This document shows positions 30,116 to 50,262 of a DNA stretch of 64,000 bases, in pieces. The notes below the pieces were generated by a model. The model was given only the letters and a program-made list of their open reading frames with translations. It ran no database searches and was not told where the DNA came from. The stretch is from Brachycybe producta. Its lineage: Eukaryota > Arthropoda > Diplopoda > Playtdesmida > Andrognathidae. The stretch lies in NCBI GenBank assembly GCA_036925085.1, contig JAUPFP010000032.1, positions 1,181,001 through 1,245,000 of the forward strand, read 5' to 3'. The stretch's first letter is position 1, and each line of letters starts with the position of its first letter. Position numbers and translations under genes: made by a program.

Positions 30116-30493
30116 CTAATGTGTTTCACCGTGGTCCTCGTCTTGTTGTCGGTTTGTTTTTCGTGGTGGCCGTCACCACCCAGCAGTTCTTGTGAGGCAG
30201 CCACGAGTGTGATCCTGTCCCTAATCTGGAGTCAGGACTGGTGAGTTTATGTAAAACTACCAAGGGGTTTTGTGAGCAACCAAGTGGGGTTGTTACATCG
30301 GCATGTTTCTATTATTAAAAATAAAAAATAACAATTTCATTATTTTTGCTTTTTTATATATGCTCCCCTCATATCCCTTTAGGCATACAAGTAATTGCTC
30401 ACATTAAAACATTTATCTTAACTTTTCTTGGTCTGGTTGCAACAAAAAATTGATGCAAACAGTGCCAGTTCTGGGTACCTGGCCACCCATGTG

Positions 30494-30805
30494 AGTAGTA
30501 TAGGAAAAGTCATTTCTATGCCACTTTTCTCCATAGACTACTATGGTGACCTCATTTCGAGCACCACATTCCAATCTCCCATAGGCTATCATTGAGTCAT
30601 TTCTACACCACTCCTTTTAAAGCTATTTTAATGCTTCATCAGAGAGAAAAAACTTTGTCCCAGTTTTTTTTGCTTCTCATTAAAAAGAAGTTTGAAACTT
30701 TCTTTAACCACCTGCTGAGATAATAAAAAAACTTGTTTTCACGACTGTTGTTTTGTATATAGAAGGTAAGAAATTTTATTTCAAACTATGAATATATATA
30801 TATAA
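30494..30805 (+). repeat. Left terminal inverted repeat of the Polinton
   Basis: Near-identical to the reverse complement of 41830-42148 over the first ~250 bp (differences such as CTATGCC versus ATACGCC), then diverging through GTATATAGAAGGTAAGAAA to a TA-rich end. Preceded by CATGTG. Confidence 0.9.
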
Positions 30806-30851
30806 TTTTTAATGTTAGTTGTGCTTAGCTTTTGCGAATAAGGCGTTCAAC

Positions 30852-31289
30852 ATGCAGGATTCTACTAAAATTGCCGTTGATGTGTATCATATGGCCAAAC
30901 AATCGAACGAAGCCGTGAATTCCAACTTTTCACGAAAAATTTTCAAACTCGCCGAACAAGCTCGAAATAAGGATATTCAAGCTTTATAATCCATAGCAAC
31001 AACTTTAAAAACTGTTTCACATTTGAACCAAGAATTAACCTTCTTGTTGGACGAAGTTTATCGAGGATCACCATCATTCGGTAAAATTATAGTGACTTAC
31101 GCACTCGTCCTCCAACTGGCAAGATCCGGATTCGAGGAAGCAATGGCAGTGCATATTGGTGAATACGTGTTCAAGTCAATTCGGCATCGTGGCTTCGAGA
31201 AAATGGATCATGTGCTGCGATGCAGGATGTCTACACAACACCTAACGACACTCCGAGTAACGTTATTCATGTGGTTCCGCAATTACTGA
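30852..31289 (+). pseudogene. Bcl-2-like apoptosis regulator, one in-frame stop
   Basis: The reading frame from ATG 30852 to 31289 is 146 codons with a single TAA at 30987-30989. After the stop, LTFLLDEVYRGSPSFGKIIV resembles a BH1 region (family pattern ELFRxG..NWGRI). The downstream IGEYVFKSIRHRGFEKM resembles BH2 (WIxxxGGW position), with the tryptophan replaced. Cellular and viral Bcl-2 proteins block mitochondrial apoptosis, and adintoviruses are known to carry apoptosis-regulator homologues. There is no clear C-terminal membrane anchor in the 3' 40 codons. It is the first gene inside the left TIR and converges on the RING gene. An AATAAA follows at about 31325. The family call rests on weak motifs; a structure-level search should settle it. 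Confidence 0.55.
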
Positions 31290-31403
31290 TGATTAGCACT
31301 TTGTTATATTTATTAATACGGATGCAATAAAATGTTACATGATCAAATTTTTTTCAGTATTGTTTTATTTCTTTATAATAACTAATGACACTTCTGAATT
31401 CCA

Positions 31404-31461
31404 CAGACCTCTGCCTGCTTAGGGATAGCAAACTTGGTATCCCAAGGCAGGCAGAGGTCTG
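31404..31461. terminator. Strong hairpin between convergent Bcl-2-like and RING genes
   Basis: A perfect 15-bp stem CAGACCTCTGCCTGC / GCAGGCAGAGGTCTG extends inward with GGGATA/TATCCC around a ~10-nt loop. It lies in the 212-bp gap between the stop codons of two convergent genes. Transcription-end or transcript-protection role is inference. Confidence 0.5.
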
Positions 31462-31501
31462 TTGCAGAAGTGTTCAATATATAAAAGAACTTAGATGATA
31501 T

Positions 31502-32005
31502 TCATTGACTTGGCAATAAGTCTGTTAAGGGCTGGTAAACATCAATTACATTTGAAATGGTGTTTCTACACACTGGGCATAAAAAACGTTCCATTTCTAA
31601 TAACGTTGTTGTACATGCCTTACAGGCAGCTTGATGTTTACAAGGGTCAAATACAACCCGTGCACCCTTCACTAAACAAATAGTACAATATTTGATAGTT
31701 GCCGTTTCTTCATCATCGTAGGGTAGTAGTTTCTCCAAAAGTTCTTCTTTTCGGCTTACAGGTGGATTTCCCATCAGCTGGAGGAGAATTTCACTATCGG
31801 TCGTGTCATCTGCAGTTGCAATTTCATTATTTTTTTTTAAATTTTTTTACGACCAATCTAATTACTTACTGGAGTCATCGAGATAGACAATTGGATGCCT
31901 ATTAACTGCAGCACTTCTAGTAGAGGCATTCGGGACAGTTTCAGGCTCCGTTTCAGAATCAGATGCAATGTCTACAAATGAAATACATGAATTATAAGAA
32001 GACAT
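31502..32005 (-). CDS. RING-finger protein (IAP/MDM2-type), spliced
   Basis: Minus strand, two exons: 32005-31870 and 31809-31502, separated by a 60-bp intron (GTAAGTAATT ... ACTGCAG). Exon lengths 136 and 308 nt give 147 residues in frame. The C-terminal RING reads CTICLVKG...DPCKHQAACKAC...CPVC, ending near NVIDVY, as in the C-terminal RINGs of IAP and MDM2 proteins. It should act as a ubiquitin ligase domain. The N-terminal half is acidic (SDSETEPETVP), with no BIR repeat visible. The start at 32005 is the first ATG after an upstream stop. It is intact, unlike most neighbours, and points at the Bcl-2-like gene: a two-gene anti-apoptosis module (inference). Confidence 0.75.
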
Positions 32006-32431
32006 AGTTGCATCATGCCTAACCAAGGTTTGACAATAGGCTTGGGAATTATCATGCTCCGAAAAATTAACATTAGGTATGAGAAATAGTGTTAACGGGG
32101 CCAGACATGGTACATCCTCAGGAGTATTTCAGTAGGACAGATTAGACAGATGAGTCATCATGTCTATACATGTTTTTATAAGTTCATGATTTAGACACAC
32201 CCTTTGGACCACATCGAGGCATGTTTGAACAAGCCTAAACATGTCTCAACACGTTTATTTTTGTTTTGTCAAGGCCGTGATTTATTTACACCCCTTGGAA
32301 ACAAGAATGGAATAAGCTAAGGGGTATAAGTACCTGGAGAAACGTATATGCTATGACTAGATCTACTCATTACCCGAAGCCTCGGATTTCACGGCATTAG
32401 GTACTTTTTTTTCTCAGTTTGATTCAGCCTT
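32006..32431. promoter_or_regulatory. Probable divergent promoter region
   Basis: 426 bp between the divergent RING gene (minus) and the exonuclease-like ORF (plus). It has a TATAAGTA box-like site about 100 bp before the plus-strand ATG, and several CATGTTT/AACATGTC repeats at 32160-32260 (ACATGTTTTT, GGCATGTTTGAAC, AAACATGTCTCAAC). Role inferred from position only. Confidence 0.35.
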
Positions 32432-32992
32432 ATGAATGAAAAATTCATTTCCAGAATGTCTGTTTTCGGCAATATATCCACCGTTATTGATTGTGACGGG
32501 TTTCAAATTGGAAGTGATTTTTACATTAAAGAATTTGGATACTATACTATCGGTGATCCACATCCGATGAATATGTTTATTCGACTTCCTGAAAATAGGG
32601 TGTTTACTTACAAGGATGTCAGAACAATGCAATTCGTGATGGCACATATTCATGGTCTTTCTTACAGAAATGATACCGATGATGTCGCATTTTCAACATT
32701 ACTGAATGTTTTATGTAGATTGTATACGCATGCCTCTGAGAAAAATTCAAATGCCTTATTCGCTTATAAGGGGGGCACTGTGGAAAAAAATTTATTAATG
32801 AAATTAAATATTCCTAGCATAAACCTCGAGGAACTAGGCCTTTGTATGAAATATGAGAATTTACTGACAATTTTTGACCCTCAAGAAGTTGACTTTACGT
32901 GTAGTCGTCATAAAAAACAGAGAAATGGAATAGCACATTGTGCAAAAAATGAGGCTTATATTTTTGGATTATGGGTACAAAAACAAAAATAA
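32432..32992 (+). CDS. Polinton-associated ORF, possible DEDDh-like exonuclease fold
   Basis: Intact, 186 residues. Features: a hydrophobic strand ending VIDCDGFQIG near residue 18, then FYIKEFG; a middle FAYKGGTVEKNLLMKLNIP; and a C-terminal CSRHKKQRNGIAHCAKNEAY. This layout (acidic pair after a first strand, GG/N-type second motif, C-x-H and H-C-A-x-N-E-A at the end) matches an uncharacterised family commonly seen with Polinton-like elements. The last motif recalls the H-x-A-x-x-D-A of DEDDh exonucleases, with the aspartate changed. Catalysis is unproven. It occupies the position where polymerase B might be expected. ATG 32432 is the first in frame. Confidence 0.5.
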   Translation: MNEKFISRMSVFGNISTVIDCDGFQIGSDFYIKEFGYYTIGDPHPMNMFIRLPENRVFTYKDVRTMQFVMAHIHGLSYRNDTDDVAFSTLLNVLCRLYTHASEKNSNALFAYKGGTVEKNLLMKLNIPSINLEELGLCMKYENLLTIFDPQEVDFTCSRHKKQRNGIAHCAKNEAYIFGLWVQKQK

Positions 32993-33021
32993 GCTAATAT
33001 GTACAATTTATTTTACTCAGA

Positions 33022-33291
33022 ATGTTGTATACGCCAACGGATTTTCCTGGTATTCGCGCGCAAGCTCGTGATGCAATAAAAACCACGATAAAATTACCAG
33101 GTTGGAATAAAGCGTGTGCTGACTGTGTTCATCAAGACGAACTCCTAAAAGCGGGTGATGGAAGTCAAGTTCCATCTCATTTTTGTACGATGTATCCCGA
33201 GGAATACGAACGGAAAAAAATAAATGATTTATTTGAGTGTGAATGTCTTATTTGTGTTAAACCGCTGGATCGAATATGCCAAATCAATTAG
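33022..33291 (+). CDS. Small cysteine-rich protein, unknown
   Basis: 89 residues, intact, 29 bp after the previous stop. Cysteines are spaced as CADC...HFC...CECLIC...C with conserved-looking histidines, suggesting one zinc-binding fold near the C-terminus. I do not recognise the family. The stop is TAG, the only terminal TAG in the plus-strand cluster. An AATAAA follows at about 33384. Confidence 0.5.
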   Translation: MLYTPTDFPGIRAQARDAIKTTIKLPGWNKACADCVHQDELLKAGDGSQVPSHFCTMYPEEYERKKINDLFECECLICVKPLDRICQIN

Positions 33292-33432
33292 AAGCGTCAT
33301 CATTCAAGGAATTTTGTATCTGATCGACCATTGGTTAGAATATGAGTGCCGATGTGAAATTTTCAAATCTTGTACTAATACTGAATAAATATCACGTTAT
33401 GTAATCATTCTCGTTGCATTCTTGAAGCTAAA

Positions 33433-34231
33433 ATGGTAGGGCAAGATGAAATATCGTGCTTAACGATAGAGGAAACGGTGATGCCGCAAAAAAGGAAACT
33501 GAGTATAAAATACATCGTTATGGGCTGCATTGCGGCTCTTATGCTTATACTCGAAACAACGAACATCGCTATTTCCACTAAAACGGAAGTACTTGCCAAT
33601 ATACAACTACCGCAAGATTCCGTAACGATCATGGAAAAAGAGGGTTCCTTGATTCCGCTGATGGCACCGCTTAGGATGATTATTGCCGGTCCCAGCAACT
33701 GCGGGAAAACAACCTTCGTTAAGAAAATTTTGGATCATGCCAGGGGAATGATTAAACCCTCACCGGAAAGAGTAACGTGGTACTATTCTCAATATCAAGA
33801 CAGGTATTCACTTTATGGGACTCGAGCAACATTTCTAAAAGGAATGCCCGACATGAAGACTCTGATGCGATAGAAACCAGCTTATTGTACTCGACGATCT
33901 GTTTCAAGATGTGGATAGGGGTGTTTCTCAGCTGTTTACGTGCAATTCGCATCATCGAAATATAAGTGTTATATTTATTACTCAAAATATTTTTGACTGT
34001 TCTTATCTGGTTCTTTTTAAAAACCCTCGTGACAAATCTCAAATTGCTCATTTGTCTCATCAGATGTATCCTGGTAACACCAAGTTTATGATCGATGCCT
34101 TTAACCAGAGTACTCATGATCCGTACAGTTACTTGATGATTGATCTCACGCAGAATGTGGATGACAACTCTCGGCTCAGAACTAATATATTTCCGGGAGA
34201 GTATACCGCTGTATTTTTACCTAAACAATGA
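33433..34231 (+). pseudogene. FtsK/HerA-type genome-packaging ATPase (A32-like), frameshifted
   Basis: The first segment (33433-33873) has Walker A IIAGPSNCGKTTFVKK, preceded by PLMAPLR. The second segment (to 34231, different frame) has Walker B LIVLDDLF and the sensor ISVIFITQN, then a conserved C-terminal part ending FLPKQ. One frameshift near 33855-33875 separates them. In Polintons and related dsDNA viruses this ATPase pumps the genome into preformed capsids. The ~75-residue N-terminal extension with a hydrophobic stretch is unusual; the real start may be a later ATG near MAPLR. The stop overlaps the next ATG (ATGA). Confidence 0.85.
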
Positions 34232-34635
34232 TGAAAGTAAGTCAAAAAATTCCTTCACGTCTCGATCGTAACATTCACAGATTACACGTAGCTGTGGAAA
34301 GTAATCCACGGCTTCAAAAAGAACTTCTAAAGAACTCCAACTTTGATTTTAATCAGTGTTTATGTGATTGTGCGCATAATATTGGGAACTCTAACATTGT
34401 ACTGAGTGAACGTGAAAAAAGAAAGCTACGACCCTATAGGCATAGACTGAATAAATTAGTGAATACGAAAGCATCTCCAAAGTCGAAGAAAAACTTTCTC
34501 GTCAAACAAAAAGGGGGTTGGCTTCCGCTGTTAATTTCTCCCGTATTATCGATGTTAGGGTTTAACGGGTTTAATAACATCATGGCCGAGAAAATGATCC
34601 TCATCCCCGCTGAATCTTGGGAAGCTCAATATTGA
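34228..34635 (+). CDS. Small basic virion-type protein with hydrophobic C-terminal segment
   Basis: 135 residues starting in the ATGA overlap with the ATPase stop. N-terminal half is helical and charged (RLDRNIHRLHVAVESNPRLQ), followed by a basic region (SEREKRKLRPYRHRL). The conserved KQKGGWLPLL then leads into a hydrophobic stretch to about residue 118. The basic-then-QKGG(F/W)LxxLL pattern is common in Polinton/adintovirus ORFs between ATPase and capsid genes and is thought to mark a minor virion component. A membrane-active or pVI/pX-like role is inference. Intact. Confidence 0.55.
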   Translation: MMKVSQKIPSRLDRNIHRLHVAVESNPRLQKELLKNSNFDFNQCLCDCAHNIGNSNIVLSEREKRKLRPYRHRLNKLVNTKASPKSKKNFLVKQKGGWLPLLISPVLSMLGFNGFNNIMAEKMILIPAESWEAQY

Positions 34636-35192
34636 GAAAGACAAGAAAAATGCCCGTTCAACGTACTCTAAGAGACATTGAAAAGACCATTCAACATATT
34701 TTGGAAGAAGAAAACTTGGATAACTACAATAAGGTTTTACTTCTAGGACAATTACAACACCGGTATAAATCCATTTATGAGAACAGACCCAAAGAGGTAA
34801 CGAAAGTTATGTTAGAGGACCCTGGTTTTTCGAGTCCCATTGAAGAAAAACATTCATCAGGTATCAGCGATATAGTTAACCAACTGCCGAAGACGCAACA
34901 GAAGAAGGCCGGTCATCTTCTTAATTTGTTAAAAGATGGTAGAGGGCCATTAAGTTGGAATTCATCGCATCAGCTTCTGATAAATGGTCAAGTCGTGCCG
35001 AATACCAATATCATAGACCTTACTAGAGATCTTGTTATCAGTAAAACTAGATACAATCCCCCAGGATGGGAGCCATTTATCACTGAGCTGAAAAAAATGA
35101 ATGTACCTCGATCTCTAATAGCTAACGACAAGCGATGGGATTATCATCCAGATACCAAAGAATCTGACAGTCCCATATGGGAAGAATCATGA
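34617..35192 (+). CDS. Polinton-associated conserved ORF, unknown function
   Basis: Open from 34617, but ATG 34650 (MPVQRTLRDIEK) just after the previous stop is the more likely start (about 180 residues). Features: N-terminal helical region (KVLLLGQLQHRYKSI), then DIVNQLPKTQQKKAGHLLNL, a W..SHQLLINGQVVPNTNI segment, and a C-terminal NPPGWEPFITEL with NVPRSLI. I know this combination from Polinton-like elements without an assigned function; proximity to capsid genes suggests a structural or assembly role. Intact; its stop overlaps the integrase start (ATGA). Confidence 0.55.
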   Translation: MGSSILRKTRKMPVQRTLRDIEKTIQHILEEENLDNYNKVLLLGQLQHRYKSIYENRPKEVTKVMLEDPGFSSPIEEKHSSGISDIVNQLPKTQQKKAGHLLNLLKDGRGPLSWNSSHQLLINGQVVPNTNIIDLTRDLVISKTRYNPPGWEPFITELKKMNVPRSLIANDKRWDYHPDTKESDSPIWEES

Positions 35193-36253
35193 AAAACAAA
35201 GAACTTAAAAAAATTTATTACGATCCATCCTCCAGTGGGTCTTTCGGAGGTGTGGACCGCCTTCATGCGGCAACTGGAAAGAAATTTACTCGGGGTGAAA
35301 TTGAAGCCTGGTTACTAACGCAAGATGCCTACACTTTACATAAACCAGTGAGAAGAACATTTACGAGAAATAGAACATTGGTCAGTAAAATAGACGATGT
35401 ATGGCAGATGGATCTCGTGGATATGCAGTCTTACAAAAAAGAGAATAAGGGTTATAACTATCTTTTAACTTGTATCGATGTATTTTCAAAATATGCTTGG
35501 GTTCCACCATTAAAACAAAAAACTGGAAAGGAAATGATCACTGCTTCAAAAATTATTCTGCGAGATGGAAGGAAGCCGAGAAAAATTCAATCGGATAGGG
35601 GTAAAGAATTCCTGAATAAGAACTTTCAGATCTTTCTCAAAGAAAATGGTATTAGATTTTATACCACTTTTAACGAAGTCAAAGCTGCCGTTGTCGAACG
35701 TTTTAATAGAACTTTGAAATCACGCATGTGGAGGTATTTTACAGCGAAGGGGAACTATAGGTACATCGATTAGTTGAGTCATCTGGTGAAAGGATACAAT
35801 GCAGCGTATCATAGAAGCATTGGAATGGCCCCGGACAAAGTTTCATCTATCAATGAAAAAAATGTATTTAAACGGTTGTTTCCGTCTGCCAATAGTAGAT
35901 TGCCCAAGTTCAAAGTAGGAGATCGTGTTCGTATTTCCAAGACGAAGCTAACTTTTGAAAAAGGTTACTTGTCTAATTGGTCGGACGAAATTTTCACCAT
36001 CTCGGCACATATCGACCGAATACCTCCGGTATACCATCTCGTGGATATTGATGGAGAACTATTAGAAGGTACGTTTTATGAGGAAGAACTTCAAAAAATT
36101 GACAAGAAAGATAGCGATTTTTGGAGGGTAGAAAAAGTTGTAGCTGAAAAAGGGAAAGGTCACCACCGGCAACTTTTGGTGAAGTGGAAAGGATATGCCG
36201 ATAAACATAACAGTTGGATTAAAGTAGGAGATTTGAAACAGCTTCAAAAATGA
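35189..36253 (+). pseudogene. Retroviral-type integrase with chromodomain, one in-frame TAG
   Basis: Start at ATG 35189, which overlaps the preceding stop as ATGA, fits the pattern of neighbours; 35177 is an alternative. The catalytic core has WQMDLVDMQ (first D), CIDVFSKYAWV, IQSDRGKEF (second D) and VVERFNRTLK (E 34 residues later). A single TAG at 35771-35773 interrupts the frame after the core. Beyond it come the SH3-like region (KFKVGDRVRI) and a C-terminal chromodomain (FWRVEKVV...LVKWKGYADKHNSW). A c-integrase with chromodomain is a Polinton hallmark; it inserts the element and makes the 6-bp duplication. The N-terminal zinc-binding HHCC motif is not obvious. Confidence 0.9.
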
Positions 36254-37617
36254 CCGAGCCTCAAGACTTTTACGTGACACTTCCGAGTAATAGCAGTATG
36301 AAATATTATCCGGACAACACTTTAACGAATTACACCGTGAAACTCCCAAAACCCATCGAAATTATTAGAGATTACGAAGTCGCCTTGGCTGAGATTCATT
36401 TTTCGCGTACCTGGTTAAATATTGCGGATGAAAAGGAAGGTGAAATTATTATCAGAGATCTAGATCGGAGCCTAAGCATCAACATTAGCATTCCTAGTGG
36501 AGTGTATCATTCCCCCGAATATCTCGTGAATGCCATCAACTCTCATATCGATGAACATTTCGGGACCCCGCATTTGAGACATCCTTCGATTCAGTCGAAC
36601 AAAAATGAGTTGATTAAAAAAATAGACAAATCTACATCTAATATAGACAAAGAGGAAAAAAATATGGTAACGGAAGAAGCCAGTGTGCAAACAGCCGCGG
36701 ACAATGTGGATATCATGTTCAAAACGTGCGAGGAATCACGCACCAATTATCAGAATCTCGTTAAGGATCAGAATACCAGTCAAACAGAATATCAAAACAA
36801 AATAACCGATCTCGAAAAAGAATTACAACATCAAAAAGCACTTCTACATGGGCCCGATGGAAAATGGAATGAAACCATTCAGCGACTTGTTTATGCCTTA
36901 CAACAAAAACTACAGGACGAAGAAAAAAAGAAGGCGGATGATGACGATGCCAAAGATAAACTTATCAATTAGGTTCGGTTACAAAAAGAAGCGAATGAAT
37001 TTAATTACAATATTTTAAAATCCTCGTATGACGAAAAAAAAGAAAATTTGGCCAAGTCAAAACGAGATCTACAAAATATGAAAGAATATCATCAGCAGCT
37101 GTTAGAAAGCAAAACACGAATAAAGAATATTGCAAATCCGAGATTAAATAGTGAAAAGAATCATTGGTTCAAATATCGGAATACAACGTCATGTGTAGAA
37201 GTTATCGTTCAGCCCAATTCAAGCATTCAATTCTCCGAAAAAATACAAAGAATGCTCGGGTTTCAAGAGGACTATCTTAGTAATACGGCGGAACTTCCCA
37301 TTATTATTGTGGCCGACTTTCTTTCGGATATTCAGCGTGATATTCATTCTTTATTCGTGTATATTGACTGTATCGAGTACCAGCCTGTGGGGGATATACT
37401 TTCTCCTTTATTGAGGCCCGTTCATCTTCAAGATTCTGATGGAATGAGAGTTACCAAAATCTACAATCAACTGCAGTACAAAAGAGTATCACGTGATAGT
37501 ATACATAGTATTGAAGTGCGTATAAGCGATGTCTTTGGACGTAAAATTTTATTTACCAGTGGAGACGTAGTGATAGCCACAGTTCATTTTTGTCCGTGTT
37601 CCATTTTTCACAAATGA
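36250..37617 (+). pseudogene. Penton-like minor capsid protein with coiled-coil insertion, one TAG
   Basis: 456 codons in one frame with one TAG at 36970-36972. The N-terminus DFYVTLPSNSSMKYYPDN, then YTVKLPKPIEI and YEVALAEIHF, is the signature of Polinton minor capsid (penton, single jelly-roll) proteins. Residues of roughly 115-295 are a long charged heptad-rich region (IDKSTSNIDKEEKNM, DLEKELQHQKALLHG, AKSKRDLQNMKEYHQQ) that splits the jelly-roll; homology resumes at HWFKYRNTT and ends RISDVFGRKI. Usual family members have a much shorter loop there. The stop lies inside the coiled coil. Starts in ATGA with integrase and ends in ATGA with the core protein. Confidence 0.8.
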
Positions 37618-38089
37618 GGGTGCCTTACAATTGTGGATCAGCGACTGATCCGTGTTATAATTATCATAAACAAATTGGATCCTCTTTGCCCGTCTTCGCG
37701 GGATCTCAATATCAGCGGGGACACGGATTTTTTTCTTCGTTATATATCGTTTCGTGATCCCTTTTTTGAAAAAAGGAGCCCTCTCAGCGAGTAAGCAGTT
37801 GTTAAAGTCTGGAACTAACATCGTATCCGATATTGAAGCGGGAGAGACTTTCAAAAGCACCTTAAGAAGGCATGGAACGGAAGCCGCGCATGAATTTTTG
37901 AAGACAGGCGGAGCTAAGCGTCGAAAAACCACTAAAACATCTGGAAATAGAAGAGTCGTGGCCAGTACGAAGCGTACAGTGAAAAGGAAAGCATCAAAGA
38001 AGAAAGTCGCTAAGAAAAGGAAATCCGCAGCAAAGAAAGCTTCGGGCCAAAAGAAAAGAAAATCTGGTAATTTCATGAATCTCCTATAA
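37614..38089 (+). pseudogene. Basic core/virion protein (Polinton pX-like), frameshifted
   Basis: Starts MRVPYNCGSATDPCYNYH in the ATGA overlap, continuing QYQRGHGFFSSL, then shifts frame near 37735-37750 into VIPFLKKGALSASKQLLKSG. The C-terminal 60 residues are extremely K/R-rich (KRKASKKKVAKKRKSAAKK). The QRGHG-glycine and LKKGA....K blocks are known from Polinton and adintovirus proteins that resemble adenovirus core proteins; DNA condensation in the virion is the likely role (inference). The 227-residue ORF on the opposite strand is a shadow. Confidence 0.65.
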
Positions 38090-38091
38090 AC

Positions 38092-39420
38092 ATGAGTGGC
38101 TTTCTCGTACATCATGACTCGGGGCCTGGGATGAGTTGTGAGTTGGATATTTTTACCGTGCCCGCGACACAAACGAGTAATCGGGATGACTGCATTAAGG
38201 AATACCATCCCGTGAACAGTATCGAAGACCAAAATATGATAGAGTTCAATATCATGGGAAATGCCGATGAATACATAGATCCTTCTGATATTTACCTGAA
38301 TGTGAAGGCAAAAATTTTAAAAGTGGACGGAAAACCATTGGACACTACTTGCGAAGTCACACTTATAAATGGTTTTTTTCACTCACTTTTTAGTGAAATT
38401 ACGGTTACTGTCGGGCATACGATTATTAGTTCCACCGATTACGATTATGGATATAAAGCTTATTTAACGACCCTTCTAGGCAGCGAAAACACCGGGAATA
38501 AACCTTATTTATCTCTCGAGATGTTCTACAAAGACACCATCGCTGCCTTTAAAGATCCTAAACCATCCACCGCTGATCCAGCAGATGGATTAGCGCAATG
38601 CTTCGAAAGATCAAAAGCATGTGCTATTATGGATATGTGCGGACGTCTTCACGGAGATATTTTTCATCAGGGGCGGCTCTTACCTAATATGCTCGATCTC
38701 TCCATTAAATTAATTCGTCAATTCGTCAATTCGCCTTTTGTTTACTGAAACCAGATAGTGACAAAAATGATTACAAAGTGGATATTAGATCTGCTACCCT
38801 CTATGTACGAAAAGTGGTACCTAATCCATCTATCGTTAGACACATATTGAGCAGTCGTTGAAAAATAATTTTATTTATCCTATCAATCGAATCAAATGCA
38901 CTTCTTTCAGCGAGCCGAGTAGAGGCCACGATATTAACATCAACATTTGTAATGGCATATTACCGAGTTTCGTTATGATTGGACTCGTTGATAGTGATGC
39001 GCGAGCTGGAAATTTAAAAAAGGATCCTTTTCATTTTCATTACAAGGACCTCAGTTTTCTCGAGCTACAGGTGGATGGCACCCAGTTTCCGGGATACAGT
39101 TCAGTCCAAATTTCAGTACGAAAGAATACGGTCATCTTTATCAGCAGCTATTTTCTGCGTGTCGCAAGTATTATGGCACAGACGGTGTAGATGTGACGTT
39201 TGAGGAATTTAAAAACGGTTATTCTCTTTATGCCTTCGATCTCACCAATGATCAAAGTGCTCTATCAGGAACCCATTTCAACTTGAGTAAAAATGGATCT
39301 TTACGTCCCAATATGAAATTTAAAAACCCACTGAACACAACGGTGAATGTCATCGTTTATTCCATCTACCAGTCCATCATCGAAGTGGATCATCATCGCA
39401 ATGTTATCATAGATTATTAA
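38092..39420 (+). pseudogene. Major capsid protein (double jelly-roll), frameshifted
   Basis: About 443 codons. The first segment (38092-38748) starts MSGFLVHHDSGPGMSCELDI and contains NMIEFNIMGNADEYIDPSDI and TVTVGHTIISS. Later segments show VRKVVPNPSI, INRIKCTSF and IRCNG-like strands, and the last (39193-39420) has NGYSLYAFDLTNDQ and the C-terminal VNVIVYSIYQSIIEVD. The reading frame changes at least twice, near 38735-38745 and near 39090, so no full-length protein can be made. The fold assignment comes from Polinton MCP motifs (Y.FDLT, TVNV.VY). It would form the hexon-like capsomers together with the penton. Confidence 0.85.
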
Positions 39421-39421
39421 A

Positions 39422-39892
39422 ATGGATTCTAGTCAACTGGAATATTTATTATTTCATCATCCTGCCACACATATCGTGTTTGCCGGTGTATTTGCACGGG
39501 TCCAACTTCCTTTTAGAGTGAATCGTAAACTTTATATCGTTAATCTGGATGCAAGGTCGGAGCCCGGATCTCACTGGATCGCTATTTAGTTCAATAATGG
39601 AATGGCTGAATATTTCGACAGTTATGGAATGAAGCCAATGACAGACGAGATAAATCAGTTCATCACGAGAAACAGTCTCTCCTGGACTTACAATGCACGT
39701 AGAATCCAACATTCGAGAACGGCCGTATGTGGTCAATATTGTATTTTCTATTCTATTTTAAGATGTTCTAATGTGTCTATGAAAAGTATCGTTTCTGTGT
39801 TTCATCGACACAATTATTTACGAAATGATAAAATTGTTCACACGTTTATTAATTATAATTTAAAAAAATATTTACCACTGTATACTTTTTAA
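39422..39892 (+). pseudogene. Adenain-type cysteine protease (C5 family), one in-frame TAG
   Basis: 157 codons from ATG 39422, two bases after the MCP stop. Catalytic signature in order: YIVNLDARSEPGSHWIAI (His), then a single TAG at 39587-39589, then AEYFDSYGMKP (acidic residue) and TAVCGQYCIFY (Gln and nucleophile Cys). This is the adenovirus-type maturation protease found in all Polintons; it cleaves capsid and core precursors. The stop separates the histidine from the rest of the active site. A-rich 3' flank follows; 39893-40038 is non-coding. Confidence 0.88.
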
Positions 39893-40038
39893 TTACATTT
39901 TTATTTACCCTTTACCTTTTCAATACATGTATTATTATACTATTTATATAAAATTAATGAATTAAAATGGGCATGTGTAACATTATGGGATGGATGCATT
40001 TGTGAATAAACATTTATTGGACTACATTGAGTAAATAC

Positions 40039-40395
40039 TTAATTTCCCATAGAGCAGAACCCAAGCTCACCACGGGTGCTTGGAGGGAGTTCAACATCGC
40101 ACTCTGCAAATTCCACATCAGGGTATATTTTTTCAAAAATGATTTGCGCAATTCTATCCCCTTTTTTAATGGAAAAATCGTAGGTTCCGAAATTTATTAA
40201 CAGAACATTAATAGCACCCCTGTAGCTGGAATCAATGACGCCAGCCAAAACATCGATTCCAAAATGAAGTGCGGGACCCGATCTTGGTGCAATTCTTCCA
40301 TAGGAATTATACGGTATAGACATGGATAAGTCTGTCATATGTAACATTATATAATCATTATGAAAAAAAGGTTTTATTTTAAAAAAATATAACAA
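40039..40395 (-). CDS. dUTPase, N-terminal motif missing
   Basis: Minus strand, up to 119 codons. Shows motif 2 (YGRIAPRSGPALHFGIDV), motif 3 (AGVIDSSYRG), motif 4 (KKGDRIAQIIF) and a variant motif 5 (RGELGFCSMG instead of RGxGGFGSTG). Homology begins at DLSMSIP; the residues before it do not match and motif 1 (AGYDL) is absent. A possible splice acceptor (GACAG before ACTTATCC, at about 40332) suggests an upstream exon, but only poly-A/T-rich DNA lies in the next 240 bp. Homotrimeric dUTPases hydrolyse dUTP to dUMP; this form would be inactive unless spliced. 40396-40634 is low-complexity A/T. Confidence 0.75.
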   Translation of the reverse strand: MLYFFKIKPFFHNDYIMLHMTDLSMSIPYNSYGRIAPRSGPALHFGIDVLAGVIDSSYRGAINVLLINFGTYDFSIKKGDRIAQIIFEKIYPDVEFAECDVELPPSTRGELGFCSMGN

Positions 40396-40634
40396 AAAAT
40401 TCTGAAAAATATAAAAATGGAAAAAACTTAGTTTTATTTAAAAAAAATTTATTATTATGAAGAAAAAAATATAAGAAAAAATACTGAAAAATATAAAAAA
40501 TGGGAAAAAACTTAGTTTTATTTAAAAATTTTTATTATGAAGAAAAAAAAAATATAATAAAAAATAATAAAAAATATAAAAAAATGAAAAAATATAACAA
40601 AAAAACTGAAAAAAAAATATTAAAAAAATTAGTC

Positions 40635-41075
40635 TTATTTTGGATAGGGTATCCATGCACTATCCACTTTCTGAATGTTCTTTCTCCACTCCTCAATTTC
40701 TCTTTTTTTCATTTTCTCACGAAGTTCCTTAGCAGCAGCCATTGCCGCCATTTCCTCTTCTGTCCAAAGTTCGTCCTCCCAGTTTTCTGCTGGGCAGTTT
40801 TCTTTTTCGATTCTAAAGTCCACTGTTGATGTATCGTCCCACTCCATATCCCCTGCATTTGTTTGCCCCTCCTGGCTAGTGTCTGTGTTTGTAGACACTA
40901 TAACAGTAGCCAGCTTTGCAGAGTTTTCTGCATCGCCTACTACTAATAAAGATTAATTATATGAAATTATAAATAAGAGCTAAAAAAATAATTTTTGTAT
41001 AAAAGGGGATACATTTATTGTTTTTGTATATCTACCTTTTACTGGCTTATTGTCAGTGGTTCCATTGGCCTCCAT
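40635..41075 (-). CDS. Acidic protein of the Polinton, spliced, unknown function
   Basis: Minus strand. Exon 1 41075-41036 (40 nt, MEANGTTDNKPVK), intron of ~93 bp with GTAGATAT donor, exon 2 from 40942 to 40635; 115 residues. The acceptor is doubled (TTAGTAG), so either AG keeps the frame and adds or drops one valine. The protein is acidic in the middle (DMEWDDTSTVDF, ENWEDELWTEEEM) and helical basic at the end (LREKMKKREIEEWRKN). No domain recognised. A decayed paralogue with the same exon structure lies at 25443-26049, which supports it as a real gene. Confidence 0.5.
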
Positions 41076-41299
41076 GTTTAGCTGGCTGAACAGATGAAGA
41101 AGTTGTATCTACATACAAAAATACATCCCCTTTTATACAAAAATTATTTTTTACCTCTTGAATGTGATTGGATAGAATAATTAATATTTTTTTCTCATTT
41201 ATCATTCATAGTGCACATTCACTAAATTTATTTTTCAAAAGAAGCAATAAATAAAATCATTAATTGTTCATAAAATAAAATGAGTAATTCAATAATAAT

Positions 41300-41829
41300 C
41301 ATTTAAAAATTCAACTGTTTTTTTTTCATTAAACAAGACAAGAAAAGAATATTAAACAAGTTTTTATCATGACTTGTAAAACAGCAGGTGGTATCATAGT
41401 CACGATTTTAGGTTTTTTTTTTCTCTCTAAAATAAACAAGGTGAAGTAAAAAATGGAACCAAGACAGTTTTTTGGGGTATAAATGATATGCTTTATACAT
41501 AGTCAAAATCTCAACATTATTATAATTTATTTTGATTCATAGAATTGACTTACCTTCCATATACAAACTATAATATCAAAACAAATGAGTCGTGACAACA
41601 AGTTTTTTTTATCTCAGCAGGTGGTTAAAGAAAGTTTCAAACTTCTATCTCTTTAATGAGAAGCAAAAAAAACTGGGTCAAAGTTTTTTCTCTCTGATGA
41701 AGCATTAAAATAGCTTTAAAACGAGTGGTGTAGAAATGACTCAATGATAGCCTATGGGAGATTGTATTGGGGTGTGGAAATTGTGTATTCTATAAGAAAA
41801 AATGTAGTTAAAATCTGAATGTATATGTA
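41300..41829. repeat. Subterminal repeats of the Polinton right end
   Basis: 41560-41790 is a degenerate extra copy of the TIR (CAGCAGGTGGTTAAAGAAAG, AAACTGGGTCAAAG, GAAATGACTCAATGATAGCC), and 41340-41480 a weaker one (AACAGCAGGTGG, TTTCTCTC). The left end lacks them. The same units build the array at 24240-28141. Confidence 0.6.
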
Positions 41830-42148
41830 TATATTCAGAGTATAAAATAAAATTTCCTACCTTCTATATATAAAATCTTTTATTTATTCTATATATATTC
41901 GTGAAAACAAGTTTTTTTATTATCTCAGCAGGTGGTTAAAGAAAGTTTCAAACTTCTTTTTAATGAGAAGAAAAAAAACTGGGACAAAGTTTTTTCTCTC
42001 TGATGAAGCATTAAAATAGCTTTAAAATGAGTGGTGTAGAAATGACTCAATGATAGCCTATGGGAGATTGGAATGTGGTGCTCGAAATGAGGTCACCATA
42101 GTAGTCTATGGAGAAAAGTGGCGTATAAATGACTTTTCCTATACTACT
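41830..42148 (-). repeat. Right terminal inverted repeat of the Polinton
   Basis: Reverse complement of 30494-30805, ending GACTTTTCCTATACTACT, followed by the CATGTG duplication at 42149-42154. Confidence 0.9.
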
Positions 42149-42154
42149 CATGTG

Positions 42155-47031: not shown

Positions 47032-47208
47032 AAATCCACCTTGAATATAATAAATTCAAATCTCCCACCATTGAATTTTACTTAACGCTAGATGGCGCTA
47101 AATGGCGGGAAATGAACCGGAAGCACATGGCCAAAAAATGAAAGTGAATAATTTCTTATAAAAAGTCGCTTATTTTTGAAGGGTTTTAAAGTTAATTTCA
47201 AGTGAAAA

Positions 47209-50200
47209 ATGTGTTATTTAATCGGAAAAACATCGAACTTTCTGAAAACGTATCGAAAATGTTTCATTTTATTTAAGAATATTAATTTAATTCGTGATTT
47301 CGACCGCGATTTGAGGTTTTGTTCGTTCAGTTCGAATAAAACCGGTAAGGAAAAGGACGTTTCCGGTTCATTTCCGAACGCTTACAACTCAAAAGACGTT
47401 CAGTCTGAATGGTACGAATGGTGGTTAGAAAGAGAGTTCTTTAAACCGTTTGAAAACAGTTCGAAAAAGCCGTTTTATTCGATGGTTCTTCCACCACCGA
47501 ACGTAACCGGAGACCTTCATATCGGTCACGCGCTTGCAATAACGATTCAGGACGTTATCGTTCGATGGTATCGTAACCATGGTTACAGTTGTGTTTGGGT
47601 TCCCGGTTATGATCACGCCGGTATCGCCACACAGGTCGTTGTAGAAAAGAAACTCAAATCCGAAAGGGGAATCAATCGGCATCGTATTGGTAGAAATGAG
47701 TTTCGAAACGAAGTGAAAAAATTTACCGATATTCGAATCGGTAACATTCGAAAGCAGCTTCGCGATTTAGGCGCATCGTTAGACTGGAGCCGAGAAACGT
47801 TCACGATGAACGAGTCGTATACGAAAGCGGTCATAGAAGCGTTCGTACGTGTTCACGAGCTCGGTCTGATTACGAGACGTAAAGGATTGGTAAACTGGTG
47901 TTGTCAGTTAAGATCGACGATATCGGATATCGAAGTCGATCACGTCGTTGTTACGGGTCGTGATACGTACAAAGATCCCGGTTACGATGTACCGATACGA
48001 GGAGAAATGATCGATTTTGCTTATCCAGTTGAAGAATCGCGGGACGAAGTCGTCGTTTCGACGACGAGGCCCGAAACGATTTTCGGAGACGTTGCCGTTG
48101 CCGTGAATCCTAACGATGTTCGTTACGAACATTTACGAGGCAAGAATGTCGTACATCCGTTTGATGGTAGGATTCTTCCGATCGTATTCGACGATTTCGT
48201 CGATCCGAAGGTTGGAACGGGTTGTTTGAAAGTGACTCCGGGTCACAGTTACGATGATTTTCGCATTGCCGAAAAGCATAAACTGCCTCTTTTAAATATT
48301 CTCGACGAAAAGGGACATCTCGTGACTTCGGTTACCAAATTCAATAATCTCCATCGGTTTTCAGCCAGAAAAGCTGTTGTCGAAGAGTTAGAGCGGCTCG
48401 GTTTGTTTCGTGGCCGCCGAGATCACGAAGTGACGCTTCCGATCTGTAGCCGCAGTGGAGGGATCGTAGAACCGATGCTAAAATCGCAGTGGTTTTTCGA
48501 AACGTCGCAATCAATTCGTGAGATTAATCGCGACCTCGAATCTGATCGGCTAGTTGTCGATCCGGGACATTCTCGTAAAGATCTTTCGCATTGGTTGAAC
48601 ATTAGTCGTGATTCCAAATGGTGTTTATCGAGGCAACTTTGGTGGGGACATCAAATTCCGGCATATCGCTTGAAATCCGATAGTATCGAGTCGGATGACG
48701 ATACGTGGATCGTTGCTCGATCTAGCGAAGAAGCGTTACTCTTGGCGAGGCACAAGTACGGTTCCGTAGTTCGACAAGACGACTTGGTTCAAGATGAAGA
48801 CGTTTTAGACACTTGGTTTTCTGCGGCTTTGTTTCCGTTCGCCGTTTTCGGATGGCCAGAAAACACAGATTCGTTACGGGCCCTTTATCCGTTGTCTTTG
48901 ATGGAAACAGGCAGAGATATCCTATTCTTCTGGGTCGTACGCATGCTAATACTGGGAAAGCTGCTTACGGGTAAACTTCCGTTTACGAACGTTCTAGCGC
49001 ATGGATTAGTATGTGATGCAATTGGTCGCAAGATGAGTAAATCGTTAGGGAACGTAATCGATCCTGCGCATCTCATAAACGGAATCACCTTAGAAGGTCT
49101 CAAGAAACGTAACGTAGACTATCATCGCGATGGTTACATCGATGCCGAAGAACTTCGGAAAACGCAAATGGCTCTAAATAAGAATTTTCCAAATGGTATT
49201 CCGGAATGCGGAGCAGATGCTTTAAGATTTGCGTTATGTTCGCAAGACATAAAAGATCAAACTGTAAGCATCGACATCAAATACATGCTTAGCTGCCGTA
49301 TGTTTTGCAACAAGATATGGCAAGCATGTCGATTTTACCTCATCTGTAAAGAGAAAGCCGGTGTGGAAGTTCCGAAGCTTTCGGAAGTGCGGCAACATTT
49401 GTCGCTTTTACATAGATGGATGCTAAGTCGGGTTTACAAAATGGTTGCCGAATGCGATGCCCATTTCGATGCTCGTGATCTTCACTTGGCAACAAGAGCA
49501 ATCAAACAGTTCTGGCATTTCGAATTCTGCGATATTTACGTCGAAGCCGTGAAACCGCTCTTTAATACGCCCGGCGGTTCGAAAACTGCAGTCGAAACAG
49601 CGCTGACGGTCATGCGGACTTGCATCGAAGCCGGAGTTTTCGCAATGTCTCCGTTTATGCCTTTCTTGTCAGAGGAACTGTTTCAACGACTGCAGTTGTC
49701 GAATAAATCACAACAGATTGATTCTGTTTGTGTCGCTGCATATCCTCGTTCGGAAGAATGGAAGCAATGGGAAGATAAACGGCTGGATGTCAACTTTAGA
49801 GAAGTTTTCGAAGTTGTATACGAATTGAGACGTTTCAAGAAATTGTTCGGAATCTCCGGTTCCGAAAGACCGAATGTTTTTCTGAAACTAAACGTTCTCG
49901 ATGACGATTTTAATTGGGAGGAAGTTTCGACTACGCTAAACACTCTCGGACGTTGTAACGTTCAACCGAATGACACGCAGCTTGCGTTCGGTGACAGAAT
50001 AATGCCGCTACGCAGTTCGTCAAAGCATGAATTTGGCGTGCAGCTAACCGGCATTGTCGATCTCGCGAAAGCCATCATTGATTTTGAGGGACAACGAGAT
50101 AAGTCGTCGAAGGAATTGGCACGTTTGGAAGCTGCAATCAAGCGTTCGGGTGGTAACGAGTACGAACACGGTAAAGTGGATGCTACAAATGAAAAACTGA

Positions 50201-50262
50201 AAGAGATAGACGAATATTTATTACACCTAAAACAAATGCTAACGAGAAGTGATCAAACGTAA
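47209..50262 (+). CDS. VARS2: Valyl-tRNA synthetase, mitochondrial type, intronless
   Basis: 1,017 residues uninterrupted. Class Ia synthetase that charges tRNA-Val. The first ~55 residues are rich in K, R, F and S with few acids (a likely mitochondrial presequence). The catalytic core has PPPNVTGDLHIGHALA (HIGH at 104-107); the CP1 editing domain includes VVSTTRPETIFGD (TTRPET 285-290); the second signature is GRKMSKSLGNVIDP (KMSKS 608-612). An anticodon-binding helical domain follows (MLSRVYKMVAECD onward), with a short coiled coil at about 950-1012 (LEAAIKRSGG, LLHLKQML). The length fits bacterial-type/mitochondrial ValRS; the cytosolic animal enzyme has a long N-terminal extension that is absent here. 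Its codons are CG-rich relative to the flanks. Lack of introns is unusual for an animal VARS2 and suggests intron loss or an old retrocopy; the intact frame implies it works. ATG 47209 is the first in frame. Confidence 0.93.
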   Translation: MCYLIGKTSNFLKTYRKCFILFKNINLIRDFDRDLRFCSFSSNKTGKEKDVSGSFPNAYNSKDVQSEWYEWWLEREFFKPFENSSKKPFYSMVLPPPNVTGDLHIGHALAITIQDVIVRWYRNHGYSCVWVPGYDHAGIATQVVVEKKLKSERGINRHRIGRNEFRNEVKKFTDIRIGNIRKQLRDLGASLDWSRETFTMNESYTKAVIEAFVRVHELGLITRRKGLVNWCCQLRSTISDIEVDHVVVTGRDTYKDPGYDVPIRGEMIDFAYPVEESRDEVVVSTTRPETIFGDVAVAVNPNDVRYEHLRGKNVVHPFDGRILPIVFDDFVDPKVGTGCLKVTPGHSYDDFRIAEKHKLPLLNILDEKGHLVTSVTKFNNLHRFSARKAVVEELERLGLFRGRRDHEVTLPICSRSGGIVEPMLKSQWFFETSQSIREINRDLESDRLVVDPGHSRKDLSHWLNISRDSKWCLSRQLWWGHQIPAYRLKSDSIESDDDTWIVARSSEEALLLARHKYGSVVRQDDLVQDEDVLDTWFSAALFPFAVFGWPENTDSLRALYPLSLMETGRDILFFWVVRMLILGKLLTGKLPFTNVLAHGLVCDAIGRKMSKSLGNVIDPAHLINGITLEGLKKRNVDYHRDGYIDAEELRKTQMALNKNFPNGIPECGADALRFALCSQDIKDQTVSIDIKYMLSCRMFCNKIWQACRFYLICKEKAGVEVPKLSEVRQHLSLLHRWMLSRVYKMVAECDAHFDARDLHLATRAIKQFWHFEFCDIYVEAVKPLFNTPGGSKTAVETALTVMRTCIEAGVFAMSPFMPFLSEELFQRLQLSNKSQQIDSVCVAAYPRSEEWKQWEDKRLDVNFREVFEVVYELRRFKKLFGISGSERPNVFLKLNVLDDDFNWEEVSTTLNTLGRCNVQPNDTQLAFGDRIMPLRSSSKHEFGVQLTGIVDLAKAIIDFEGQRDKSSKELARLEAAIKRSGGNEYEHGKVDATNEKLKEIDEYLLHLKQMLTRSDQT

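Follow-up and report, generated by a model that had tools for sequence, protein, structure and literature searches.

Structure and termini of the element

We analysed a stretch of 64,000 nucleotides from the genome of the millipede Brachycybe producta (assembly GCA_036925085.1, contig JAUPFP010000032.1, positions 1,181,001 to 1,245,000), hereafter called the window, whose own coordinates are used throughout. At 30494-42148 the window holds an element of 11,655 bp that is almost certainly a decayed, non-autonomous and internally deleted copy belonging to an abundant family of this genome, one of Polinton (Maverick)/adintovirus type. Most of the sister elements checked carry a gene for DNA polymerase B (PolB); this copy does not.

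The ends of the element are well defined. Self-comparison of the window revealed inverted repeats at 30492-30671 and 41971-42150, whose outer 180 bp show 98% complementarity. An alignment of the left end with the right, 254 columns long, contained 4 mismatches and 2 columns with gaps. The terminal inverted repeats accordingly occupy 30494-30746 on the plus strand, beginning with AGTAGT, and 41896-42148 on the minus strand, finishing with ACTACT, and they are flanked by a perfect 6-bp target-site duplication, CATGTG, at 30488-30493 and 42149-42154 (no strand assigned). These features bear out the inverted repeats, AG...CT termini and duplication described in a first-pass annotation made from the letters of the sequence. 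That annotation also called the element structurally complete, which holds for the ends and fails for the interior, where several genes are frame-broken or contain stops and about 5.25 kb is missing. A search of the genome (295 Mb in 442 contigs) with the outermost 187 bp of the left repeat gave at least 40 matches among the best 40 of 251 candidates, counting the two ends of the window's own element.

Self-comparison of the window also showed that part of the right terminal repeat recurs further in, at 41588-41774 (no strand). At 41588-42080 the right end includes a second copy of the terminal repeat, a partial one, and several sister elements have more such repeats at that end. A-rich repeats lie at 40381-40631, just to the right of the deletion join described below.

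Gene content and decay

Of 47 stop-to-stop frames of at least 60 amino acids, 20 were searched against Pfam and 10 against PHROGs; genes broken in this copy were recognised by comparison with sister elements elsewhere in the genome. The first gene on the left is a broken counterpart (30819-31327, plus strand) of a 169-amino-acid open reading frame (ORF) that is open in a sister (L052, 1154-1660). In the sister this ORF weakly resembles the Bcl-2 apoptosis regulators (E=4.7e-4), scoring 21.1 bits where the cut-off is 31.4, in a match that spans profile positions 4-100 of 100. In the window the broken gene is followed by a RING-finger protein on the minus strand (31505-31846; Pfam zf-C3HC4_3, E=3.4e-11), by a plus-strand frame of 189 amino acids and unknown function (32423-32992), and by the broken counterpart of a sister ORF of 130 amino acids (32998-33385, plus strand). 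The 189-amino-acid frame is open in the sister too; a search of the protein database yielded a single relative, and no family in Pfam, PHROGs or NCBIfam matched it convincingly.

A P-loop ATPase, probably the packaging ATPase, lies at 33385-34228 on the plus strand and is split over two frames. The corresponding sister ORF of 294 amino acids matches Pox_A32 (E=8.8e-6; 25.8 bits, cut-off 22.8) in an alignment around the P-loop only. It also matches RNA_helicase PF00910 just above the cut-off (E=0.00015), again only over the P-loop part (residues 99-145), and the window frame itself gives the same Pfam family below the cut-off (E=0.0088). We read the PF00910 match as the P-loop of the putative packaging ATPase and not as a helicase. 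Next come the region corresponding to a sister ORF of 244 amino acids and unknown function, with stops in its first part here that may or may not fall inside the true gene (34455-35189, plus strand), and an RVE integrase with a C-terminal chromodomain (35171-36250, plus strand; Pfam rve E=7.5e-16, Chromo E=2.3e-7), interrupted by one in-frame stop.

The virion genes follow on the plus strand. At 36223-37617 is the frame that the first-pass annotation named as penton, a putative penton or minor capsid protein, which has one in-frame stop and is open at that place in the sister element on contig C12. The frame named there as core protein (37670-38089) is rich in lysine and arginine and was so assigned by composition only; neither frame had an above-cut-off match in Pfam or PHROGs. 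The major capsid protein (38071-39417) is split over three frames, while a reading frame of about 449 amino acids is open in many sisters. It has 131 database relatives, two of which, among those listed, are named F54H12.2-like, these being relatives by sequence only. A probable adenovirus-type cysteine protease (39413-39889) has one in-frame stop; the sister ORF matches Peptidase_C5 weakly (E=0.0079, below the curated cut-off). On the minus strand, at 40039-40437, is an open dUTPase frame (Pfam dUTPase, E=2.3e-22) that the first-pass annotation does not list. Of the annotation's gene list, the integrase is supported directly, and the ATPase (around the P-loop only) and, weakly, the protease through the sister ORFs.

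Judged against the siblings, then, this copy has broken frames for the ATPase and the capsid protein, and a single in-frame stop in each of the integrase, penton and protease frames. The copy diverges from the compared siblings by about 5-6%, and by comparison with siblings that share identical capsid scores (see below) it appears to be a fossil, one that would be unable to replicate or to form particles with its own genes.

Absence of PolB and its identity in sibling elements

In the sibling elements a minus-strand ORF of 1200 amino acids, which we assign to PolB, is found to the right of dUTPase. Matches to it were present in all 12 of the sibling right halves that were fetched, and in 7 of the 12 the frame of 1200 amino acids is open. 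We assign this ORF to PolB because of its homologues and its motifs. The C-terminal 640 residues have at least 7073 homologues among the best 8000 candidates, the best at 53% identity; among 120 that were listed, several carry precomputed PF03175 assignments and two are named DNA-directed DNA polymerase. Motifs visible in the ORF are, we presume, those of B-type polymerases.

The sister PolB used as a TBLASTN query against the whole window gave no match at E<=10. This agrees with the statement of the first-pass annotation that PolB is absent, not even remaining as a decayed stretch, and a hidden remnant within the element was rejected on the same result. No polymerase family was found among the frames searched against Pfam (20 of 47) and PHROGs (10), nor did these searches reveal an alternative replication gene, whether primase-helicase, S1H or S3H helicase, or TVpol. 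Because PolB was looked for and not found, we regard the element as a deleted derivative and not as a full member of its family.

The deletion junction

The left half of the element (30494-36568) aligns in a single collinear alignment, at 93.5% identity, with the one sister left half that was compared, that of C12. With a length of about 16.4 kb, the C12 sister has both ends and a 6-bp duplication of its own (AACATT), and carries a PolB of 1200 amino acids on the minus strand to the right of dUTPase; C12 and C72 are the two sisters for which a 6-bp duplication on both sides has been demonstrated. The first-pass annotation had expected PolB between the RING gene and the ATPase. That interval is collinear with the left half of C12 and nothing is missing from it.

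The break is on the right. Compared with each of the 12 fetched sibling right halves, the right part of the element shows 94-97% identity up to position 40336, after which the alignment jumps towards the right end. In the sibling on C72 (L038), which is 96.6% identical over the 2 kb to the left of the join, the match picks up again at 40337 after a gap of about 5.3 kb. The sibling on C3 is 98.7% identical over the 302 bp to the left of the join, and in it a stretch of 5,253 bp intervenes between the counterparts of 40336 and 40337; this stretch contains the 5' end of dUTPase, the whole of PolB (frame-broken in C3) and about 1.5 kb more. We therefore place a deletion junction (no strand) at 40336..40337. 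The dUTPase frame of the window aligns with residues 49-150 of the 150-residue sister protein, the 48 N-terminal residues being lost at the deletion point.

These data are best explained by a single internal deletion, about 5.25 kb long, that fused a site within the 5' part of dUTPase to one close to the right terminal repeat and took with it the whole PolB gene and the 5' end of dUTPase. End joining or failed copying, the usual origins of internal deletions in DNA transposons, may have produced it. We saw nothing against the deletion itself. A query of 300 bp centred on the join matched in full only at the window, and no other match extended more than 16 bp across it (best 40 of 101 candidates, to which all statements on the join's occurrence refer). 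No lineage of copies sharing this deletion was found among those best 40 candidates.

The first-pass annotation also proposed a lineage that makes virions and replicates by host enzymes or a helper. On this view the element would represent a distinct Polinton lineage that never had PolB or lost it long ago. Such a lineage would fit the intact ends and duplication and the lack of any PolB remnant. It is contradicted by the 93.5% identity of the left half to a PolB-bearing sibling, by the 94-97% identity to 12 siblings up to a single clean break on the right, by the single occurrence of the join among the best 40 candidates, and by the broken frames of the ATPase, integrase, penton, capsid and protease genes; we consider it highly improbable.

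Some observations weigh against our interpretation of the element as an internally deleted copy. Identity between C3 and the window drops to 89-93% on the right of the join, so that C3 is the closest sibling on one side only. The sister ORF was not called a polymerase by sequence searches of Pfam, NCBIfam or the PDB, and at E<=0.1 Pfam gave only a weak Endonuclease_7 match. The census of PolB presented below rests on a single PolB protein query (best 74 of 436 candidates). Finally, the assembly could be in error at the join, PolB having been dropped through collapse of repeats. The highly repetitive family and the A-rich repeat next to the join would lend themselves to such an artefact, but ordinary bases cross the join, inspection by eye showed no bases in common between the two ends of the missing segment, and sibling copies were assembled at full length. 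We give this explanation very little weight.

PolB across the family

A census of the family was made from capsid matches and PolB matches. The capsid search returned at least 156 matches (best 150 of 181 candidates), from which 67 rows were chosen by hand: 65 long matches of at least 63% identity and 2 partial ones, these two not having been picked blindly. Other partial matches (some above 85% identity), rows below 60% identity and a few long rows of about 61-65% (e.g. C71:144009, C1:12254374 and C12:2158743) were left out of the census.

In the near group, defined by capsid identity of at least 85%, PolB was found beside the capsid gene in 42 of 48 loci (40 of 46 if the two partial rows are set aside). 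In the far group PolB was listed for 12 of 19 loci; two of the seven others were inspected and both do have PolB. In both groups the listed PolB lies on the opposite strand at a distance of 2.3-3.1 kb, most often 2.4 kb from the capsid start. Comparing the gene content of other copies, as the first-pass annotation had proposed, showed that most of them carry PolB (the near-group loci counted above and all 12 right halves), the outcome that it had named as making this copy a simple deletion. The idea of a lineage producing virions without a polymerase of its own finds no support in these counts or in the broken virion genes of the window.

Six near-group loci were without PolB, one of them the window itself. 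At C133 the PolB side would fall off the contig. C20:1532295 has an internal deletion that retains PolB residues 1-160 and joins positions ~2153 and 5560 of the sibling right half, and C1:13834247 has another, joining ~3804 and 6266, where matches to PolB are confined to residues 745 to 1167. At C86:114459 only PolB residues 1023-1200 are present, with an unexplained break on the right-hand side; at C2:261812 the match ends before dUTPase. The last two copies are truncated or interrupted. Since the deletions in the window, C20:1532295 and C1:13834247 each have their own end points, PolB sequence has been lost by internal deletion at least three times.

Twenty-one capsid loci share one score (467.4 bits, the next below the window's own); 20 of them have open frames of 449 amino acids and one has a frame of 445. 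Many PolB matches likewise sit in open frames of 1200 amino acids across contigs. The common capsid scores and open PolB frames point to a recent burst of the family. Eight further loci with one common score form a second family, whose capsid identity is 64% (C17, C49, C1, C35, three on C57, and C11).

Timing of the deletion and its significance

The first-pass annotation had suggested an internal deletion before insertion. The deletion is borne out by the comparison with siblings; as to its timing, loss before, during or after insertion is in each case compatible with the data from one genome. A more specific history, contained within our interpretation, is that an element already shortened by the deletion was inserted in trans, satellite-like, with siblings supplying PolB and integrase. 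The deleted interior lies between near-identical ends and a perfect duplication, which fits this history, as does the existence in the genome of siblings with an open PolB of 1200 amino acids. No second copy with the join was found among the best 40 of 101 candidates, however, and a deletion after insertion would look identical. We view this history as possible but unlikely, and as slightly less likely still the full sequence of events in which PolB was lost first and the product was copied and inserted here by a sibling bearing PolB and integrase. If it were true, deleted Polintons could act as satellites of intact ones.

Interpreted as a deleted copy, the element has little significance in itself: it represents no novel type of virus, just a dead copy of the ordinary sort, and internally deleted, decayed copies are to be expected of an abundant DNA transposon. 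It does serve as a caution that intact ends and a clean duplication are no proof of a whole element. With its many near-identical open-frame copies and their deletion derivatives, this genome would be reasonably well suited to studies of their origin.

A probable host gene nearby

Outside the element, at 47206-50262 on the plus strand, is an unbroken frame of 1018 amino acids encoding a class I tRNA synthetase whose best match among solved structures is valyl-tRNA synthetase. It is probably a host gene in a single exon.

Comparison with known systems

Polintons are described as elements of 15-20 kb with pPolB (PMC4028283), and at 11,655 bp the window copy falls short of that size. Polinton-like viruses, mostly without pPolB and RVE integrase and with other replication genes (PMC11071308), resemble the window copy in that it lacks PolB. 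They differ from it in that its lack of PolB is explained by one deletion, it has an RVE-type integrase, and the frames tested in it showed no further replication gene.

Adintoviruses are characterised by PolB with an N-terminal OTU-like domain, a hexon and an RVE integrase with a C-terminal chromodomain (PMC11071296). The integrase with chromodomain found here, the relatives of the capsid protein in animal sequences and the PolB of the sisters are all like those of adintoviruses; the window copy, without PolB, is unlike them. Vertebrate Mavericks were reported at 3,511 loci, 96% of them eroded and probably fossils, with (AGT)2//(ACT)2 ends and 6-bp duplications (PMC8097293). The window copy resembles these degraded elements in its end motif, its duplication length and its kind of decay, and is unlike them in that its ends are well kept.

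The closest comparison is with the sister elements of the same genome. They have the same terminal repeats and gene order as the window copy and, at the identities given above for the C12 left half and for the 12 sisters up to the join, differ from it in having kept PolB and in length, C12 measuring ~16.4 kb.

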